Source: Kiritimatiellota bacterium
Lineage (GTDB): Bacteria; Verrucomicrobiota; Kiritimatiellia; JAAZAB01
DNA: 10,000 nucleotides
Direction of reading: 5' to 3'
Assembly: GCA_008636095.1 (NCBI GenBank)
Contig: VSJD01000207.1
Span: 1-10,000, forward strand
In this document: positions 2,617 through 10,000 of the stretch, in pieces
Numbering within the stretch: position 1 is the first letter of the stretch
Layout: every line of letters begins with the position of its first letter
Made by a program: the position numbers and the translations under genes
The notes under the pieces: generated by a model
What the model was told of the DNA's origin: nothing
Seen by the model: only the letters and a program-made list of their open reading frames with translations
Database searches by the model: none

Positions 2617-2946
2617 ATGCAAATCGAAACCAGCAAAATTGATCAAACGGTCGTCCTGGCAATCAAGGGCCGCATGGATGTCATTGCCGCGATGGAGTAC
2701 GAAAAAGCAATCATGGCGTGTCTCCAGCGCGGCGACCTGAAGTTCGTCGTGGACCTTAACGCCTTGGACTATATTAGCAGTGCAGGTCTGCGCAGTCTGC
2801 TGACCACCGCCAAAAAAATCAAGGAAGCTAAGGGTACGGCAAACTTCTGCAATGTCAAAGGCGTCGTCCAGGAAGTCTTTGCCATGTCCGGCTTTGACTC
2901 CATCTTGCCGATCTTTAAGTCGGTTAAAGACGCCTTGCCAGGTTAA
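2617..2946 (+). CDS. STAS-domain anti-sigma-factor antagonist, first of a tandem pair
   Basis: This 109-residue protein is a single STAS domain, the usual length for SpoIIAA/RsbV-type antagonists. In such proteins an unphosphorylated conserved serine lets the antagonist bind a kinase/anti-sigma protein and free its target; phosphorylation blocks this and a PP2C phosphatase resets it. The signature FVVDLNALDYISSAGLR spans residues 43-59. By family analogy S55 is the phospho-acceptor. ATG 2617 was chosen because AAGGAG at 2603-2608 sits eight bases upstream; the in-frame TTG at 2530 would add 29 residues outside the domain. The next gene follows after four bases. No kinase partner is encoded in the window. 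The protein is cytoplasmic and probably a substrate of the phosphatase at 4286-6250. Confidence 0.88.
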   Translation: MQIETSKIDQTVVLAIKGRMDVIAAMEYEKAIMACLQRGDLKFVVDLNALDYISSAGLRSLLTTAKKIKEAKGTANFCNVKGVVQEVFAMSGFDSILPIFKSVKDALPG

Positions 2947-2950
2947 GCCC

Positions 2951-3283
2951 ATGCAAATTATCATTGCAAAGAAAGCCCCCGCCATCATCTTGAGCATTTA
3001 TGGGCATTTTAACGCCGCGGCCACCGCGGAATTTGAGCGTATTTTCAACCAGCACCTGGATGCCGGCGAACGCCACTTTGTCCTGAATCTGGCCGAGATG
3101 ACCTTCATCAGCAGTGCGGGGTTATGTAGTATCCTTGCGACCGCCAAGAAAATTAAGGAGCGTGATGGGAACATTGTGATTTGCGCTCTACAGGGCGAAG
3201 CGCTCAAAGTCTTCGAGATATCCGGGTTTGCCGCCTTGTTTTCCTTTTACCCTACTGAGGCGGCGGCGCTCAAACAGGTATGA
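2951..3283 (+). CDS. STAS-domain anti-sigma-factor antagonist, second of a tandem pair
   Basis: This 110-residue STAS protein aligns end to end without gaps to its upstream neighbour. By eye I count 38 identical residues among the first 100, including ISSAGL at 53-58 and TAKKIKE at 64-70. It is therefore a tandem duplicate, now well diverged. The putative phospho-serine S55 is kept, while D46 and D51 of the first copy are N and T here. Loss of these acidic residues may change recognition by the kinase or phosphatase, so the two copies could bind different partners. The start ATG follows the previous stop by four bases, which suggests translational coupling; the upstream AGG near 2940 is a weak ribosome site. 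Confidence 0.87.
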   Translation: MQIIIAKKAPAIILSIYGHFNAAATAEFERIFNQHLDAGERHFVLNLAEMTFISSAGLCSILATAKKIKERDGNIVICALQGEALKVFEISGFAALFSFYPTEAAALKQV

Positions 3284-3297
3284 TTTTGTCCGACTAC

Positions 3298-3313
3298 CAC
3301 CTTGATTAAGGTG
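3298..3313 (+). promoter_or_regulatory. Hairpin sequestering the ribosome-binding site of the binding-protein gene
   Basis: CACCTT at 3298-3303 pairs perfectly with AAGGTG at 3308-3313 across the loop GATT. AAGGTG is the only Shine-Dalgarno-like sequence before ATG 3316, so the helix would hide it. The stop of the preceding STAS gene (3281-3283) lies 14 bases upstream of the helix. A ribosome terminating there could disturb it, which would couple translation of the two genes. The pairing is seen directly; the regulatory role is inference. Confidence 0.5.
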
Positions 3314-3315
3314 CC

Positions 3316-4332
3316 ATGAACCAGGTATCCCATGCCCACCGGCTCCTGCTCTTGGTAGGTCTGATTTTCCTGTCCGGCACACTTGCGCTGAAGGCCGCGT
3401 CGGCCGACGTTAGGCCGGCTGTATTGGTGCCGCAATGGGAACCCCAGGCCCAATTTGCCGGGTATTATGTCGCTGTCGAAAAAGGTTTTTATGCCCGCTA
3501 CGGCCTGGTGGTCACGGTGCTCCGGGGTGGCCCGGACCAGCCGATTGGCCGCCTGCTCCAGGAAGGCCAAGCTGATTTTGCCACAACTTTCCTGACCTCC
3601 GCGCTGGAAAAGCGTTCCCTTGACGGGCTCCCGCTGGTCAATATCGCCCAAATGGTCCAACGTTCCTCACTCCTGCTGGTGGCCCGTAAATCGTCCGGCA
3701 TCCGCTCGCCCGCCGATTTACAGGGCAAAACGGTCAGCCTTTGGCCGGATTTCGCTGTTCAGCCCAAGGCCCTATTCCGCAAATTCGGCGTGGAACCGCG
3801 GGTGCTGATCCAGGGTGCAACGATCAATCTGTTTTTGCGCGGGGCAGTGGATGCCGCTTCCGCCATGTGGTACAATGAATACCACATGCTGATCAACAGC
3901 GGGCTTGAGGAGCAGGACCTGACGGTCTTCTTTTACGACCAGTTTGACCTGAATTTCCCGGAAGACGGTATCTATTGCCTGGCGCCGACGCTGAAACAGG
4001 ATCCGGACCGTTGCCGCCGGTTTGTGCAAGCCTCGATTGCCGGCTGGCAATATGCGTTTCAACATCCCGAAGAAGCGCTGGATATCGTCATGCGGCAGGT
4101 AACGGTGGCCAATCGCCCGACCAATCGCGTCCACCAACGCTGGATGCTGAACCGTATGAAAGACATTATGCAACCGCCCGGCGCTCTGCCGTTTGGCACG
4201 CTTACGGAAGCCGATTACCTGCGCGTGGCCCGGGAACTGAAAGACATCGGCCAGATTAACACCATCCCGGCCTGGAACGAATTTTATGAAAACTGCGCCC
4301 TTGACATTCCGACGAACCAGCCTGGCCGTTAA
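3316..4332 (+). CDS. NMT1/THI5-type periplasmic substrate-binding protein
   Basis: The 338-residue product begins with a signal peptide (hydrophobic stretch about 10-25, probable cleavage near ASA at 28-30) and lacks a lipobox cysteine, so it should be a free periplasmic protein. The mature start VLVPQWEPQAQFAGYYVAVE (36-55), then KGFYARYGL (56-64) and GGPDQP (71-76), is typical of the NMT1/THI5/SsuA fold, whose members bind thiamine precursors, riboflavin, sulfonates, nitrate or related small molecules. The ligand cannot be named from sequence. No permease or ATPase gene lies in the window. Its 3' end overlaps the next gene by 47 bases, tying its expression to the sensor phosphatase. I infer a receptor role in signalling rather than transport. 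The ATG is the only reasonable start; its ribosome site lies in a hairpin. Confidence 0.85.
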   Translation: MNQVSHAHRLLLLVGLIFLSGTLALKAASADVRPAVLVPQWEPQAQFAGYYVAVEKGFYARYGLVVTVLRGGPDQPIGRLLQEGQADFATTFLTSALEKRSLDGLPLVNIAQMVQRSSLLLVARKSSGIRSPADLQGKTVSLWPDFAVQPKALFRKFGVEPRVLIQGATINLFLRGAVDAASAMWYNEYHMLINSGLEEQDLTVFFYDQFDLNFPEDGIYCLAPTLKQDPDRCRRFVQASIAGWQYAFQHPEEALDIVMRQVTVANRPTNRVHQRWMLNRMKDIMQPPGALPFGTLTEADYLRVARELKDIGQINTIPAWNEFYENCALDIPTNQPGR

Positions 4333-6250
4333 GTTCGGCTTAATGGTTATGGCGGGCACTTCGCTGGTATTTGCCGCGGCCTTTATTTACAATCATGCCC
4401 TTTCGCGCCGCAGTATCTTGCGCAATGCAGAAATAAACGCCAGCAATTTGGCTGGCGCCACGGTGGGCCGGATTGAGGCCGTATTGAATGGCGTGGAAAA
4501 GATTCCCTGCTACATGGCGCTCTGCCTGGAACAGCGCACCTGGGCACGCGAAGACCTGACTGCCTTCATTAGCAATGGGTTAGCGGCCAACCCGGATATT
4601 TTCGGGTCCACCGTTGCGTTTGAGCCGTACACGTTTGATCCCCACTCCAGGTTTTTTGCGCCTTACTGTTATCACCAGGGCACGGATATCCGGCAAATCT
4701 GGCTGGGTAGCGACCAGTACCAGTATTTTAACTGGGATTGGTATATCCTTCCCAAAGAGCTCCAGCGCTCCGTGTGGAGCGAACCGTTTTTTGATGAAGG
4801 GGGCGGCAATATTCTCATGACTACGTATTCCGTGCCGTTTTACCGTCTGTTAAACGGACAACGGCAATTCCAGGGAATTGTTACCGCCGATATCGCGCTG
4901 GACTGGCTGGTCAACATGGTCGCATCGGTGTCCTATCTTAAGACCGGTTATGCTTTCTTGATTTCGCAGAGCGGTGTGTTCGTGACGCATCCCGACAAGC
5001 GCTTGATCATGCGTCAAAGCATATTTGACGTAGCCGAGGGCGCCAACGACGCGCATCTCCGGCAAGTTGGCCAGGCCATGGTTCACGGCGACACGGGCTT
5101 TGTGCGGCTGGAAAGTCCGTTCTTTGGCAAGCCTGCCTGGTTGTATTACGCGCCGTTGAAATCGCCGGGCTGGTCATTGGGCGTACTCTTCCCGGAAGAT
5201 GAACTGTTCGCCGACGCCCAGCGCATGGGCCGCAACATTCTGCTGATCGGCTTGGCAGGTTTCGTCATCCTCTTCCTGATCATTGTGCTGATTTCGGCCA
5301 CCGTGACCCGGCCTATCCGGGCCCTGGCCCGGACCACGGCGGATATTGCACGCGGCAACCTGGACATCAAATTGCCGCTGGTTAAAAGCCACGACGAAGT
5401 GGGCGAGCTCTCCTTTGCCTTCGACAACATGCGCGTAGCCCTCAAGGAGTATATCGCCGGCCTTACGGAAGCCACCGCTGCCCGGGAGCGCCTGGAAAGC
5501 GAACTCAAGATTGCCCGGACGATTCAAATGAGCTTCCTGCCGAAGCACTTTCCGCCTTTCCCCGAACAGGCCGAATTCGATCTCTTTGCCCGACTGGAAC
5601 CCGCCAAGCAGGTTGGCGGCGATCTCTACGACTTTTTCCTGCTCGACGACCAGCATCTATTCTTCAGCATTGGGGATGTCTCCGACAAGGGTGTGCCGGC
5701 GGCGCTTTTCATGGCCGTAACCAAAACGCTGATGAAAGGGATTGCCATGCAAGGTGGACTCGATCCAGCCAGCGTGCTGGAACACGTCAACCTGGAATTG
5801 TGCAAGGAAAACGATTCGCTTATGTTTGTGACCGTCTTCTGTGCCTTGCTCAATTTCCGCACGGGCGAGTTGGTGTATTCCAACGCCGGTCACAACCCCC
5901 CGCTGATCCGGCGCGCCGACGGCCAGCCGGAAGAGTTGCCCCTACCCAAGGGCATTATTCTGGGCGCGATCGAGGAAGCCCGTTATACGACTGCTTCCCT
6001 GACCCTGCATGCCGACGATATGCTGGTGCTCTATACCGACGGTGTCACCGAGGCCATGAATCCGAGCCAGGACTTATATTCGCTGGAACGCCTGCGGGAA
6101 ACGGTGAATGGCGTCAGTGATCAGAACCCAAAAACCATCGTGGATGCCATCTTCCAATCCGTCACCACCTATGCCGCCGGCGCGCCGCAGTCCGACGACA
6201 TCACCGTCCTGGCTTTGCATTATAACGGAACATCATCGCCGATTCGTTGA
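4286..6250 (+). CDS. Membrane sensor phosphatase: dCache-HAMP-PP2C (SpoIIE/RsbU type)
   Basis: The 654-residue protein has a membrane helix at about 17-35, a large extracytoplasmic dCache-like sensor domain (about 37-312, with WDWYILP, WSEPFFDEGGG and a GYAFLIS segment), a second helix at about 318-340, a HAMP domain starting TRPIRAL (to about 393), a short coiled linker, and a PP2C/SpoIIE phosphatase domain (about 415-645). Metal-binding motifs are intact: GGDLYDFF with D446 and D449, GDVSDKG with D464 and D467, NAGHNPP at 533-539, YTDG with D585, and SDD with D637 and D638. Such enzymes dephosphorylate STAS antagonists in response to a signal, and two STAS genes lie just upstream. The start overlaps the binding-protein gene by 47 bases and has only a weak GGA upstream; ATG 4343 would cut into the first helix. 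Translation is probably coupled. Confidence 0.93.
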   Translation: MKTAPLTFRRTSLAVKFGLMVMAGTSLVFAAAFIYNHALSRRSILRNAEINASNLAGATVGRIEAVLNGVEKIPCYMALCLEQRTWAREDLTAFISNGLAANPDIFGSTVAFEPYTFDPHSRFFAPYCYHQGTDIRQIWLGSDQYQYFNWDWYILPKELQRSVWSEPFFDEGGGNILMTTYSVPFYRLLNGQRQFQGIVTADIALDWLVNMVASVSYLKTGYAFLISQSGVFVTHPDKRLIMRQSIFDVAEGANDAHLRQVGQAMVHGDTGFVRLESPFFGKPAWLYYAPLKSPGWSLGVLFPEDELFADAQRMGRNILLIGLAGFVILFLIIVLISATVTRPIRALARTTADIARGNLDIKLPLVKSHDEVGELSFAFDNMRVALKEYIAGLTEATAARERLESELKIARTIQMSFLPKHFPPFPEQAEFDLFARLEPAKQVGGDLYDFFLLDDQHLFFSIGDVSDKGVPAALFMAVTKTLMKGIAMQGGLDPASVLEHVNLELCKENDSLMFVTVFCALLNFRTGELVYSNAGHNPPLIRRADGQPEELPLPKGIILGAIEEARYTTASLTLHADDMLVLYTDGVTEAMNPSQDLYSLERLRETVNGVSDQNPKTIVDAIFQSVTTYAAGAPQSDDITVLALHYNGTSSPIR

Positions 6251-6396: not shown

Positions 6397-6473
6397 TGGC
6401 ACCCCGGAGAGGGCTCGAACCTCCGACCTGCGGTTTAGGAAACCGCTGCTCTGTCCAACTGAGCTACCGGGGC
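6397..6473 (-). tRNA. tRNA-Arg (anticodon CCT)
   Basis: Read on the minus strand, the acceptor arm GCCCCGG pairs with CCGGGGU (first pair G-U). The anticodon stem GCGGU/ACCGC encloses the loop UUCCUAA with anticodon CCU. The T arm holds GGUUCGAGCC. The discriminator is G and the CCA tail is encoded (6397-6399). The 77-nt length is normal. It would read the rare arginine codon AGG. A minus-strand promoter lies just upstream. Confidence 0.95.
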
Positions 6474-6865: not shown

Positions 6866-7498
6866 TTATTCCGCAGGCTGATCGGCCGTTTTCTCTTCAA
6901 CCTTGGGCACCGCCGGAATGGGGATGATGGCGATCATTTCTTCCACGGTCACAAAACCATCATTGTTGGCGTCCCGGTCTTTGAATTGCTTGTCGGCACC
7001 GGCCTTCATTTCATCCGGCGTAACCTTGCCGTCGCCGTTGGCATCCATGGCTGCGAAAACGCTCTTACGGTAGGCAATGACCTCAACCGCGCTCACTTCG
7101 TTATCGCCGTTGGCGTCCAGTTCATCACAGGCCGCTGTCTGGTCAGCCGCGGCATCTGCGCCCGCAAAGAACACAACGTATTCTTCCATCGTCACGCTGC
7201 CGTCTTTGTTGACGTCGATATTCACGAACCGCTGGCCGATGAATTCATCGGGAGATACTTTGCCGTCGCCATTGGCATCCAGTTCCTTGAACCATTCCTT
7301 AAGTCTGGCCTGCCGTTCTTTCGCGGTCAACTTGCCGTCGATATTGGCATCCATTTTCTGAAAGATCGATTTAACGATCTTGGCGCCTGCTTTCAGGTCC
7401 GTAGCCGTGGTGGACGCCGCTTTCTCCTGCGCGCAAACCACCGACATCATAGCAACCGCGGCCACTCCGGCAACTGCCCACTTTAACATCTGACTCAT
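6866..7498 (-). CDS. Exported calcium-binding protein with six EF-hands
   Basis: The 210-residue protein has a signal peptide (about 1-23, cleavage near VCA-Q). Six canonical 12-residue EF loops begin at D50, D74, D95, D128, D152 and D176. Each has acidic or Asn residues at positions 1, 3 and 5 and Glu at position 12, so all six should bind Ca2+. The fourth (DANGDNEVSAVE) has Asn in place of the usual Gly at position 6. Loops are 21-33 residues apart and probably form three pairs. The tail is Pro/Glu-rich. No enzymatic domain is present, so it is a periplasmic or secreted Ca2+ buffer or sensor, target unknown. ATG 7498 follows GGGAGG (7506-7511 on the complementary strand) by seven bases. The gene is monocistronic, with its own promoter and terminator. 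Confidence 0.92.
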   Translation of the reverse strand: MSQMLKWAVAGVAAVAMMSVVCAQEKAASTTATDLKAGAKIVKSIFQKMDANIDGKLTAKERQARLKEWFKELDANGDGKVSPDEFIGQRFVNIDVNKDGSVTMEEYVVFFAGADAAADQTAACDELDANGDNEVSAVEVIAYRKSVFAAMDANGDGKVTPDEMKAGADKQFKDRDANNDGFVTVEEMIAIIPIPAVPKVEEKTADQPAE

Positions 7499-7710: not shown

Positions 7711-8490
7711 ATGCGGTTTCTTCTCTATAATGTGCGTTATTGCTCGGGACATGGCGGACAGTTTCATCTTCCGTGGAGCGGCTATCTGCACCGGACGGCG
7801 CGTCAGCTCGATCAGATCACCGCGTTTATCCAAACGATGGCGCCGGACATTGTCGGCTTGTTGGAAGTGGATGCCGGTTCCTATCGCTCGCGACGGCACA
7901 ACCAGGCAGCCCTGATCGCGGAGACCCTGGGGCACTATCATGTCTATCATTCCAAGTATTCGGAGCGCTCTCTGGCGCGCCGTTTGCCGGTAATGGGCAA
8001 ACAGGTCAACGCCTTCCTGTGCCGCGATGCCGTCCATGCCCGGCGATTCCATTTTTTCAAGAAGGGCGTCAAACGCCTGGTGATCGAGTTGGAACTTCAG
8101 AATCTCGTTATTTTTCTCGTGCATCTCTCGCTGGGGTATCGGACCCGTCATGATCAACTGAATGATCTGTATACCTTGGTGAAAACAATTCAAAAGCCTT
8201 GTATCGTGGCCGGAGATTTTAATGCATTCTGGGGGGATCGCGAAATCAAGCTGTTCCTGGCCGCCACCGGCCTGGCCAGTGCCTGCGCACAGCCCCGGCC
8301 GTCCTTTCCCAGCTGGAAACCCCGGCGCCAACTGGATTTCATCCTGCACAGTTCCGCTATTCGAATCACCGGTTTTTTCATGCCGCAGGTGACATTTTCC
8401 GATCACTTGCCGCTGGTCTGTGATTTTGAGATTCAAATGCCGGAGGCGGATCAAAAAAGTTCATCTACCGGAAAACCCAAAAGGAAGTAA
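7711..8490 (+). CDS. Endonuclease/exonuclease/phosphatase (EEP) fold hydrolase
   Basis: The 259-residue protein shows the full EEP active-site set: N7 in LLYNVRY, E52 in GLLEVD, H138 in VHLSLGY, D169 and N171 in GDFN, D209 in QLDFIL, and D231-H232 in SDHLP. Family members (DNase I, exonuclease III, sphingomyelinase, inositol phosphatase) cleave phosphodiester or phosphoester bonds with Mg2+. The compact length and lack of a signal peptide suggest a cytoplasmic enzyme. The substrate cannot be assigned: it lacks obvious AP-endonuclease features and could act on nucleic acid or a small phosphate ester. The C-terminal 25 residues are charged and probably flexible. It is divergent from the EF-hand gene across 212 bases, and appears monocistronic. 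Confidence 0.87.
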   Translation: MRFLLYNVRYCSGHGGQFHLPWSGYLHRTARQLDQITAFIQTMAPDIVGLLEVDAGSYRSRRHNQAALIAETLGHYHVYHSKYSERSLARRLPVMGKQVNAFLCRDAVHARRFHFFKKGVKRLVIELELQNLVIFLVHLSLGYRTRHDQLNDLYTLVKTIQKPCIVAGDFNAFWGDREIKLFLAATGLASACAQPRPSFPSWKPRRQLDFILHSSAIRITGFFMPQVTFSDHLPLVCDFEIQMPEADQKSSSTGKPKRK

Positions 8491-8621: not shown

Positions 8622-9956
8622 ATGATACAATCAGAATATTTTCGCATGGGATTCGTTCTGGGCATCGTCATGCTCCTGGCAGTGGTTGCCCGAACCGAGC
8701 GCGTGCTGACGCCGGAAGATCTGCTGGATAACGCGGACATTTCATCACTGGAGCAATCTCTCCTCGAAAATCTCCCGCCGGAACTGGAACTGCCCGATGC
8801 CGAAGACTGGCAATCATTTTGGAACCAGGTCGAAATTATCCTGCAATCTCAATCGTTGGACGACATGACCTGGTTTTGTTCCACAGTCCAACAGGTCTGC
8901 GGGTATCTTGACGCCGACCCCGCCACTCAGCCGTGGGCCGACTGGCTCAGGCAAAGGCTGGATTATTTTGAAATGGCGAGTGTTGCCGTTCAGGAAGTAC
9001 CGTCTGAACCGGTCATTCCAATTGCCTCCGCGCCATCCACCCCACCCGCCCCCTCACCGGCAACACCGAAAGTCAAGCCCAGCCCACCCCCTTCGCCGGC
9101 GGTTACACCGACCAAACACAAGGTATTCCATCTCGTTACACCCGGGACACCGCCGGCCAAAGCGCCGGTGTCGCTCCAAGTACAAAGCAAACGGCATAGT
9201 CTGGTTCGCAATTCAAGCCGGTGGCAGAAAAAACTGGCAAACCGACCGGCGCCGCCGAATGCGGCCGCGCTGATTCCACGCCTTAAAAAAGTATTTCGGA
9301 GCGAAGGTTTACCGCCGGAACTGGTCTGGATGGCGGAAGTGGAATCGTCACTGAATCCCGCGGCACGCAGTCCGGTCGGTGCGCTGGGACTATTTCAACT
9401 CATGCCGGCCACGGCTCGACGATTTGGCTTGCGCACCGGTTTTTTTGATGAGCGCAAGGACCCCGAAAAAAGCGCGCGCGCCGCCGCACAGTACCTGAAG
9501 TTTCTTTACCACGCGATGGGATCCTGGCCGCTGGCCCTGGCGGCCTATAATGCGGGTGAAGGCCGCGTGGGCAAAATAGTAAAACGCAAAAAGCAGGACT
9601 CCTTTGAGGGCATTGCCGATGACCTGCCGATGGAAACCCAGATGTACGTGCCCAAGGTCATGGCCCTTATTTCCCTGCGGGAAAACACGGCCCCCGAAAA
9701 ACTGCCCGGTCCCGTAATCAGGTCATCATTGAATCAGCATCCCGCGGCTGTTGCCACCTACAGCCTTCAGTCCACAGCCTACAATCTTTCTGCATTATTT
9801 ATCTTCGAGCCACTTTTCGAATGTTTGCCCGGACCCACTGAGCGCTCAGTTTATGCTTGCAATTCGGAGGTAAACCGACAGAATGCACAAGTTTATTGGC
9901 CGGAAGATCTCCCTTATCGGTGGGGTACCGAAGTGGCCAACCGGGGCAGACTGTAA
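8622..9956 (+). CDS. Membrane-anchored lytic transglycosylase (SLT/MltD-like catalytic domain)
   Basis: The 444-residue protein (from ATG 8622) has an N-terminal signal or anchor helix (about 9-25), an acidic region, a Pro-rich linker (about 126-185) and a goose-type SLT domain (about 215-350). The catalytic glutamate is E241 in EVESSLNPAA. GALGLFQLMPATARRFG follows, and AAYNAGEGRVG contains N310 and E313. Such enzymes cut peptidoglycan, leaving 1,6-anhydromuropeptides, during wall growth or remodelling. No LysM domain is present. The last ~85 residues are not part of the SLT fold: they are encoded by a heptamer array and a palindrome, and the final 38 bases overlap tRNA-Tyr, so the tail is probably a recent read-through extension. 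The start is uncertain: ATG 8622, ATG 8646 and GTG 8592 all lack a Shine-Dalgarno, and GTG 8592 lies in the repeat. Confidence 0.85.
   Translation: MIQSEYFRMGFVLGIVMLLAVVARTERVLTPEDLLDNADISSLEQSLLENLPPELELPDAEDWQSFWNQVEIILQSQSLDDMTWFCSTVQQVCGYLDADPATQPWADWLRQRLDYFEMASVAVQEVPSEPVIPIASAPSTPPAPSPATPKVKPSPPPSPAVTPTKHKVFHLVTPGTPPAKAPVSLQVQSKRHSLVRNSSRWQKKLANRPAPPNAAALIPRLKKVFRSEGLPPELVWMAEVESSLNPAARSPVGALGLFQLMPATARRFGLRTGFFDERKDPEKSARAAAQYLKFLYHAMGSWPLALAAYNAGEGRVGKIVKRKKQDSFEGIADDLPMETQMYVPKVMALISLRENTAPEKLPGPVIRSSLNQHPAAVATYSLQSTAYNLSALFIFEPLFECLPGPTERSVYACNSEVNRQNAQVYWPEDLPYRWGTEVANRGRL
9757..9784 (+). repeat. Heptamer tandem array, four units, consensus CCTACAG
   Basis: Four consecutive 7-bp units read CCTACAG, CCTTCAG, TCCACAG, CCTACAA. 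The array lies inside the open frame of the transglycosylase tail, where it encodes a low-value stretch (TYSLQSTAYN). Its period equals that of the array at 6264-6298, but the consensus differs. Confidence 0.6.
9837..9850. repeat. Perfect 14-bp palindrome upstream of tRNA-Tyr
   Basis: ACTGAGCGCTCAGT is identical to its reverse complement. It lies 68 bases before the tRNA-Tyr 5' end, inside the tail of the transglycosylase frame. With no loop it would be poor as an RNA hairpin, so a protein-binding site or a repeat fragment is more likely. Function is unknown. Confidence 0.4.
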
Positions 9957-10000
9957 ATCTGTTGGCTAACGCCTTCGATGGTTCGAATCCATCCCCCACC
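9919..10000 (+). tRNA. tRNA-Tyr (anticodon GTA), 3' end at window edge
   Basis: The acceptor strand GGTGGGG (9919-9925) pairs with CCCCACC (9994-10000). The anticodon loop CTGTAAA gives GTA. A long variable arm makes it class II, as expected for bacterial tRNA-Tyr. The T arm is GATGG/CCATC around TTCGAAT. The discriminator base and any encoded CCA lie outside the window. Its first 38 bases overlap the transglycosylase reading frame. Confidence 0.95.

Follow-up and report, generated by a model that had tools for sequence, protein, structure and literature searches.

An NMT1-type binding protein and a dCache-HAMP-PP2C phosphatase in a Kiritimatiellota STAS gene cluster belong to a conserved, modular receptor family

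The stretch analysed here (the window) consists of the first 10,000 nucleotides of contig VSJD01000207.1 from a Kiritimatiellota bacterium (GCA_008636095.1). This contig, here called C156, comes from a fragmented assembly of 3.8 Mb in 357 contigs that is 87% complete. The window carries a cluster of four genes on the forward strand. Two STAS proteins are encoded at 2617..2946 (anti-sigma-factor-antagonist type; Pfam STAS, 66 bits) and 2951..3283 (58 bits), and both score over the TIGR00377 cut-off. They are followed by an NMT1/THI5-type substrate-binding protein (SBP) of 338 residues at 3316..4332 (Pfam NMT1, 137 bits) and by a membrane phosphatase of 654 residues at 4286..6250, which combines a dCache domain (Pfam MCP-like_PDC_1/dCache_1), a HAMP domain and a SpoIIE-type PP2C domain (185 bits). 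The gaps are 4 bases between the STAS genes and 32 bases between the second STAS gene and the SBP gene, and the SBP and phosphatase genes overlap by 47 bases. The cluster is thus as described in the original prediction, coordinates and spacing included, and the 47-base overlap recurs in two other genomes of the genus (L017 and L098). A scan of the window by open reading frames and Pfam found no permease, ATPase, other transporter or anti-sigma kinase gene, and the predicted lack of a permease, an ABC ATPase and an anti-sigma kinase is borne out within these limits.

The phosphatase comprises a periplasmic dCache domain (residues ~40-310), a HAMP domain (336-387) and a C-terminal PP2C domain (454-646) that matches the PDB structures of Rv1364c, RssB and SpoIIE. 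By these matches and by its Pfam SpoIIE score, the enzyme is of the SpoIIE/RsbU type found in RsbU/V/W partner switching; the PP2C domain occupies the place that a histidine kinase holds in LuxP-LuxQ. The start of the first STAS gene was set at the ATG at 2617, which matches STAS homologues, within a frame that is open from 2530. Ser55 of this protein (2779-2781) falls in the column of SpoIIAA Ser58 in an alignment with SpoIIAA (1auz) and others, as does Ser55 of the second STAS protein (3113-3115) when aligned to SpoIIAA. Ser58 is the phosphorylation site of SpoIIAA, and both STAS proteins of the window resemble antagonists with a serine in the phosphorylation column. The SBP begins with a hydrophobic helix (residues 7-26) that was read by eye as a signal peptide.

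The queries used to collect related loci were confined to the SBP itself or an alignment of SBPs, which kept the selection independent of the neighbouring gene. A scan of GTDB species genomes contributed the best 80 of 545 confirmed relatives, with a lean to close relatives. Further searches covered 97 relatives and 297, 288, 285 and 297 genomes from four phyla, drawn regardless of the neighbouring gene, with up to seven candidates scored per genome (up to eight in one search). Pooling gave 158 loci, with 3.2 to 19.7 kb of DNA each. Dropping the 13 that duplicated another locus or lay wholly within it left 145 distinct ones; near-identical loci, for example the window and L017, stayed in. Loci L101-L103, with NMT1 domains fused to kinases, and L184-L189, with remote SBPs of 114-149 bits, were kept outside this count. 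Three of the 145 loci stop at a contig edge right behind the SBP gene. In 140 of the 142 testable loci, a dCache-family gene lies directly behind the SBP gene on the same strand, four of these genes being cut by a contig end. Taken as longest open frames, the SBP and receptor genes overlap in 131 of the 140 pairs, by exactly 4 bases in 27. No single open frame holding both the SBP and this dCache was found among the 158 rows, a database-wide search for fusions not having been run.

The 71 loci of named origin bear twelve phylum labels, some of which may be wrong as they come from metagenome-assembled genomes. Thermodesulfobacteriota (31 loci) and Myxococcota (20, largely records titled only 'Deltaproteobacteria') are followed by Omnitrophota, Lentisphaerota, Verrucomicrobiota, Kiritimatiellota, Acidobacteriota, Planctomycetota, Elusimicrobiota, Coprothermobacterota, Hydrogenedentota and Pseudomonadota. 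Identity to the window SBP falls to 44% in alignment A2, and the genes flanking the pair differ between loci. Since the pair recurs across many phyla, the gene pairing in the window goes beyond chance.

In 297 genomes of one phylum, a dCache gene lies behind 42 of 44 SBPs of the subfamily (>=300 bits), and an SBP gene precedes 41 of 48 dCache matches (>=230 bits). The dependence of the SBP on the dCache gene is thus stricter than that of the dCache gene on the SBP. By genome, 41 hold both, three the SBP only and four the dCache only; that is, dCache occurs in 41 of 44 genomes with the SBP vs 4 of 253 without it (odds ratio 851, p 5e-42, a p-value that is too small because the genomes are related). 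One of the three SBP-only genomes, G154, holds a piece of a dCache gene cut by a contig end, and the only paired gene among the weaker dCache matches (<230 bits, 11 of 59) is from this genome. There (L172/L344), a stop breaks the SBP frame and the dCache gene is incomplete near the contig end, through decay or sequencing error. The conserved pairing of an SBP gene with a membrane receptor gene, as known for LuxP-LuxQ, is thus present in both samples.

The output domain of the receptor varies. By our own profiles, the 140 receptors comprise 117 with PP2C, 13 with a class III cyclase, four with a chemotaxis signalling domain and one with a histidine kinase (L261, recognised by eye in its sequence), the remainder being four cut genes and one broken gene; Pfam confirms the cyclase in L073. 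Eight of the 117 PP2C receptors have a fused RsbW-like, kinase-type ATPase. At least six changes of output are needed on the SBP tree (134 rows), three of them forced by well-supported branches, and likewise six on the dCache tree, two of them forced. The conserved unit is therefore the SBP with the dCache domain, and PP2C with STAS is its commonest output. The original prediction had taken the binding protein with PP2C and STAS as the unit: its SBP-dCache part stands, and the fixed PP2C/STAS output does not, as cyclase, chemotaxis and kinase domains replace PP2C.

NMT1 domains also accompany histidine kinases outside this count. In L101:491-3520, L102:7325-10615 and L103:8448-11714, they are fused, by Pfam, to PAS/GAF histidine kinases; the genomes belong to the same class as the window, and the L103 fusion is a second NMT1 protein of genome G003. 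In L185-L188, remote NMT1 SBP genes are followed by HAMP histidine kinase genes, which looks like a parallel pairing. Our dCache profile misses their sensors, for which Pfam reports dCache_1 in L185 and L186 (with HisKA in L185); L187 and L188 were read by eye.

Both trees were built from the 134 of the 145 loci whose receptor ends in a PP2C, cyclase or chemotaxis domain. Over these loci, the pairwise SBP distances correlate with those of dCache at a Spearman coefficient of 0.89, and at 0.90 between loci of different output; the best of 200 permutations reached 0.17. When the number of columns was equalised in 113 PP2C-type loci, the agreement between SBP and dCache (0.79-0.85) is close to that between the halves of the SBP (0.81-0.87) or of the dCache domain (0.84-0.87). 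The two proteins share nearly one history as far as it can be resolved, which fits physical partners. The comparison of 0.90 for SBP-dCache with 0.61 for dCache-PP2C was dropped as proof of co-evolution, since the half-protein control revealed noisy PP2C distances.

Of the 117 PP2C loci, 64 have a STAS or RsbW-like gene nearby or fused in, vs none of 17 cyclase or chemotaxis loci. Where a locus has 4 kb or more of upstream flank and 5 kb or more downstream, the counts are 33 of 72 and 0 of 13 (p 0.0012). Such an association is consistent with STAS proteins being acted on by the PP2C domain. On the same strand and close by, such genes precede the SBP gene in 32 of 117 loci and follow the receptor gene in 16, with orders such as STAS-ATPase-SBP-PP2C and SBP-PP2C-STAS-ATPase. 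RsbW-like genes are near or fused in 56 of the 117 PP2C loci. The absence of an anti-sigma kinase that was predicted from the window thus describes the window itself and need not extend to the system. The window genome (G000) has six HATPase_c_2 (RsbW-type) matches, four of them over the Pfam cut-off, on contigs C125, C211, C127 and C149. On C125 (L329:7127-8783), the ATPase forms an operon with a STAS gene and a middle gene that we take to be GPP34-like; the operon is conserved in the genus and also occurs at L098:11855-13509. In G003, of the same genus, it lies ~1.7 kb upstream of a STAS-STAS-SBP-PP2C cluster on the same strand, separated from it by a divergent permease gene, presumably of the purine type. 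The blocks of C125 and the window cluster match this single G003 region at 84-88% DNA identity. Because the same operon lies near the cluster in G003, the C125 ATPase is the best candidate for the kinase.

The AlphaFold2 model of the SBP (mean predicted local distance difference test score, pLDDT, 93.1) has as its closest PDB structures the thiamin-bound protein 4NMY and ThiY (3IX1), then THI5, and sequence-profile matches agree with the fold in placing thiamin- and aminopyrimidine-binding proteins nearest. The 4NMY protein has the same residues at the positions of Trp41, Trp143 and Glu188. A histidine of the 4NMY/THI5 branch is replaced by Phe47, which is invariant in 68 aligned sequences. 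THI5 makes hydroxymethylpyrimidine (HMP) with an active-site histidine and a Cys-rich motif; in the SBP the Cys-rich stretch reads LNFPEDGIYC, and the loss of both features rules out a THI5-like enzyme. Tentatively, the fold and residue matches suggest as ligand a heteroaromatic compound different from HMP. The dCache model (residues 1-400; pLDDT 87.7) matches the histidine-kinase sensors 3LIB and 3LI9 and other dCache domains. Amino-acid-type domains (dCache_1AA) carry an arginine two residues before the Trp of a Trp-Tyr pair. None of the 24 rows of alignment A4 has it, and the column, read by eye, holds Trp, Leu, Met, Tyr and others. An RNA-family search near eight chosen loci gave two group II intron matches, both in L075, and no riboswitch that might hint at a ligand; the RNA genes of the window are two tRNAs only.

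These observations point to the SBP as, most likely, the subunit that senses the ligand in a modular receptor of two parts, and we consider it probable that the cluster works as such a receptor, the SBP capturing a ligand that the dCache domain reads and the PP2C domain acting on STAS. The soluble, periplasmic NMT1-type SBP would capture a small molecule, probably a heteroaromatic one of the thiamin or aminopyrimidine kind. The dCache domain of the membrane protein encoded by the overlapping next gene would contact the SBP directly and read its ligand-dependent shape, a mechanism that by analogy is likely to be that of LuxP-LuxQ. Control would run from there through HAMP to the PP2C domain, which would remove phosphate from Ser55 of one or both STAS proteins. 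Once dephosphorylated, these might bind an RsbW-like kinase whose gene lies elsewhere, perhaps the C125 ATPase, and by titrating it change whatever that kinase holds.

Several observations weigh against this interpretation. The SBPs of L181 and L182, apparently close relatives of each other, have no dCache gene behind them. Among the 48 close dCache relatives, seven lack a preceding SBP gene, one of the seven being cut by a contig end, so the dCache domain may act alone or with a partner from elsewhere. Five of these seven are full-length PP2C receptors, of which four (L313, L314, L315 and L317) adjoin STAS and/or RsbW-like genes and L316 does not; L318 starts at the contig end and L319 is a cyclase. 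No STAS or RsbW-like gene is nearby in 39 of the 72 PP2C loci with ample flanks. Agreement between the SBP and dCache trees can arise from shared inheritance alone, and the PP2C domain is unusable as an internal contrast because its own halves agree at only 0.51-0.64. Finally, the window SBP groups with four chemotaxis-type SBPs (95% by the Shimodaira-Hasegawa-like approximate likelihood ratio test, SH-aLRT), whereas the window dCache is nearer to the PP2C type.

The dCache relatives that stand alone are also where the prediction is exposed to its own counter-example, an orthologous phosphatase locus lacking the SBP gene, which does occur as a minority. They would be expected if the dCache domain bound the ligand itself and the SBP were an accessory, a scavenger or concentrator that raises sensitivity and is not needed for signalling. 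The dCache fold does match many direct ligand binders, and the CuaDSR kinase responds without its SBP, if less efficiently, according to the part of PMC10384115 that reports it. We nevertheless regard an accessory role as unlikely, given that 140 of 142 SBPs keep the pair, that the pair outlasts changes of output, and that the arginine of the amino-acid-type motif is replaced in all 24 dCache rows.

The two-part receptor has also to be set against an importer. The SBP is of a transporter-type family, the window genome has eight BPD permease matches elsewhere, and the SBP could serve an ABC importer encoded away from the cluster, with the phosphatase merely co-transcribed. Permeases were sought with one profile built from oligopeptide permeases and one from TauC-type seeds. 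Of the 145 loci, L174 alone has a TauC-type permease and L068 alone one of the oligopeptide type. Some loci carry ABC-ATPase-like genes at a distance of 2-8 kb; only in L174 does such a gene adjoin a TauC-type permease. There (L174:4118-9727), an ATPase, a permease and an NMT1 transporter SBP are followed by the sensor SBP and its PP2C receptor; because the second NMT1 SBP sits with the ATPase and permease, the importer has an SBP of its own. Permease and ATPase genes beside the SBP, the other counter-example named in the original prediction, thus occur at this single locus, together with a second SBP. As a separate observation, L174 may join an uptake system to a sensing system, the two possibly sharing a ligand.

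As a control, a Pfam NMT1 search of 59 genomes of the phylum sampled above with 297 genomes gave 75 matches, of which 30 were made into loci with 1.5 kb flanks. Eight belong to the subfamily, and these have the dCache gene in 8 of 8 and a permease in 0 of 8. Among 19 other free-standing NMT1 SBPs, a permease and/or ATPase is present in 11 and this dCache in none; two of them, L338 and L339, correspond to L188 and L185, the SBP genes that stand ahead of HAMP histidine kinase genes. The remaining three loci have NMT1 domains within longer open frames. One genome, G143, holds 40 of the 75 matches, and none of the other 58 genomes holds more than five. Related transporter SBPs thus keep their permeases, and the window lacks the permease and ATPase that stand beside the SBP in NitT/TauT/thiamin importers. 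With the pairing counts (140/142 and 42/44), this control supports well the proposal that the SBP is dedicated to the dCache receptor and not to a transporter, and makes service to a distant importer highly improbable.

Co-transcription alone would be explained equally if the SBP were a product of the pathway and not its input, with the partner switch governing its expression or secretion. However, the SBP is found with cyclase, chemotaxis and kinase outputs as well, and its divergence tracks the periplasmic dCache domain, so that we give this arrangement very little credence. That the adjacency was inherited by chance or transferred as a neutral block is scarcely believable: shared inheritance accounts for part of the tree agreement, but not for 140/142 retention under twelve phylum labels, with SBP identity down to 44% and differing flanks.

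Sensors of the two-part kind are known with other outputs. The LuxQ sensor is of the PDC/Cache type. Like the window, LuxP-LuxQ, CuaD-CuaS-CuaR, ChvE-VirA and the proposed AatJ-AauS combine a periplasmic or extracellular SBP with a membrane receptor, as described in parts of PMC5394107, PMC10384115 and PMC7386598. SBP-kinase systems are documented in the first two of these sources; in the third, as far as its relevant part goes, the AatJ-AauS contact is a proposal, and AauS has a CACHE domain. All of these systems have a histidine kinase output, unlike the PP2C of the window and the cyclases and chemotaxis domains of its relatives, and the SBP of the window is of the NMT1 family. The NMT1-histidine kinase loci L101-L103 and L185-L188 likewise use NMT1 as the sensor part; they differ in being fused, or paired with a dCache domain outside our profile, and in their histidine-kinase output. 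ThiY and other thiamin SBPs of ABC importers, and THI5, share the fold and best sequence matches of the window SBP, which differs by Phe47 in place of His, by the missing Cys-rich THI5 motif and by the missing permease.

On the output side, the window resembles RsbU/SpoIIE-SpoIIAA-RsbW in its PP2C domain, in STAS proteins with serine at the phosphorylation column and in the RsbW-like ATPases of the genome. It differs in that the kinase lies outside the cluster and that the phosphatase would be gated by a periplasmic two-part sensor. SiaABCD of Pseudomonas aeruginosa shares the membrane HAMP-PP2C phosphatase acting in a partner switch, and the part of PMC7647112 describing it names no binding protein. 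The window phosphatase is not SiaA, scoring 70 bits against the NCBIfam SiaA equivalog cut-off of 700. Chemoreceptors, sensor kinases, c-di-GMP enzymes and Ser/Thr kinases are listed as SBP-stimulated receptors in PMC9602780, and phosphatases are not in that list in the part of the source consulted. Neither an SBP-gated PP2C phosphatase nor an NMT1 SBP-dCache gene pair was found among the matches listed in open-licence literature. SBP-gated kinases and HAMP-PP2C phosphatases are thus known separately.

Other genes surround these cassettes. Upstream of the cluster, the window encodes an NqrF-like ferredoxin reductase (844-1866), scoring under the NqrF cut-off, and a protein of 154 residues with no Pfam or NCBIfam match (2039-2503). 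Downstream lie a tRNA-Arg(CCT) gene (6397-6473, reverse strand), a gene for a protein with repeated EF-hand motifs and a hydrophobic N-terminus (6866-7498, reverse strand), its neighbour of the endonuclease/exonuclease/phosphatase family (7711-8490) and a tRNA-Tyr(GTA) gene (9919-10000, forward strand) cut by the window end. In 11 other loci (L030, L035, L038, L041, L043, L047, L051, L053, L054, L065 and L068), a metallo-beta-lactamase-fold-like gene (~317 residues, by eye) lies near the cassette on the same strand, directly behind the PP2C gene in seven. A protein of ~680 residues that by eye resembles two ABC_sub_bind-type domains is encoded behind the cassette in L032, L058 and L081.

The cluster thus belongs to a conserved, modular family of SBP-dCache receptors, mostly with a partner-switch output through PP2C. 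On balance, we lean towards regarding this family as a widespread receptor class in which overlapping genes encode an NMT1 SBP and a dedicated dCache-HAMP part that form one sensor unit for a ligand that is probably vitamin-like and heteroaromatic, with interchangeable outputs; such a class would comprise SBP-gated protein phosphatases in partner switches, nucleotidyl cyclases, chemoreceptors and kinases. If this is true, PP2C phosphatases, and in relatives class III cyclases, join SBP-gated signalling through one sensor pair. To our knowledge, the signals sensed by RsbU-type membrane phosphatases are mostly unknown. Here, the likely sensing subunit is soluble and so open to purification and direct ligand screening, by which this question would become testable. 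The recurrent exchange of outputs while the sensor pair stays the same would, moreover, be a natural experiment in receptor modularity.

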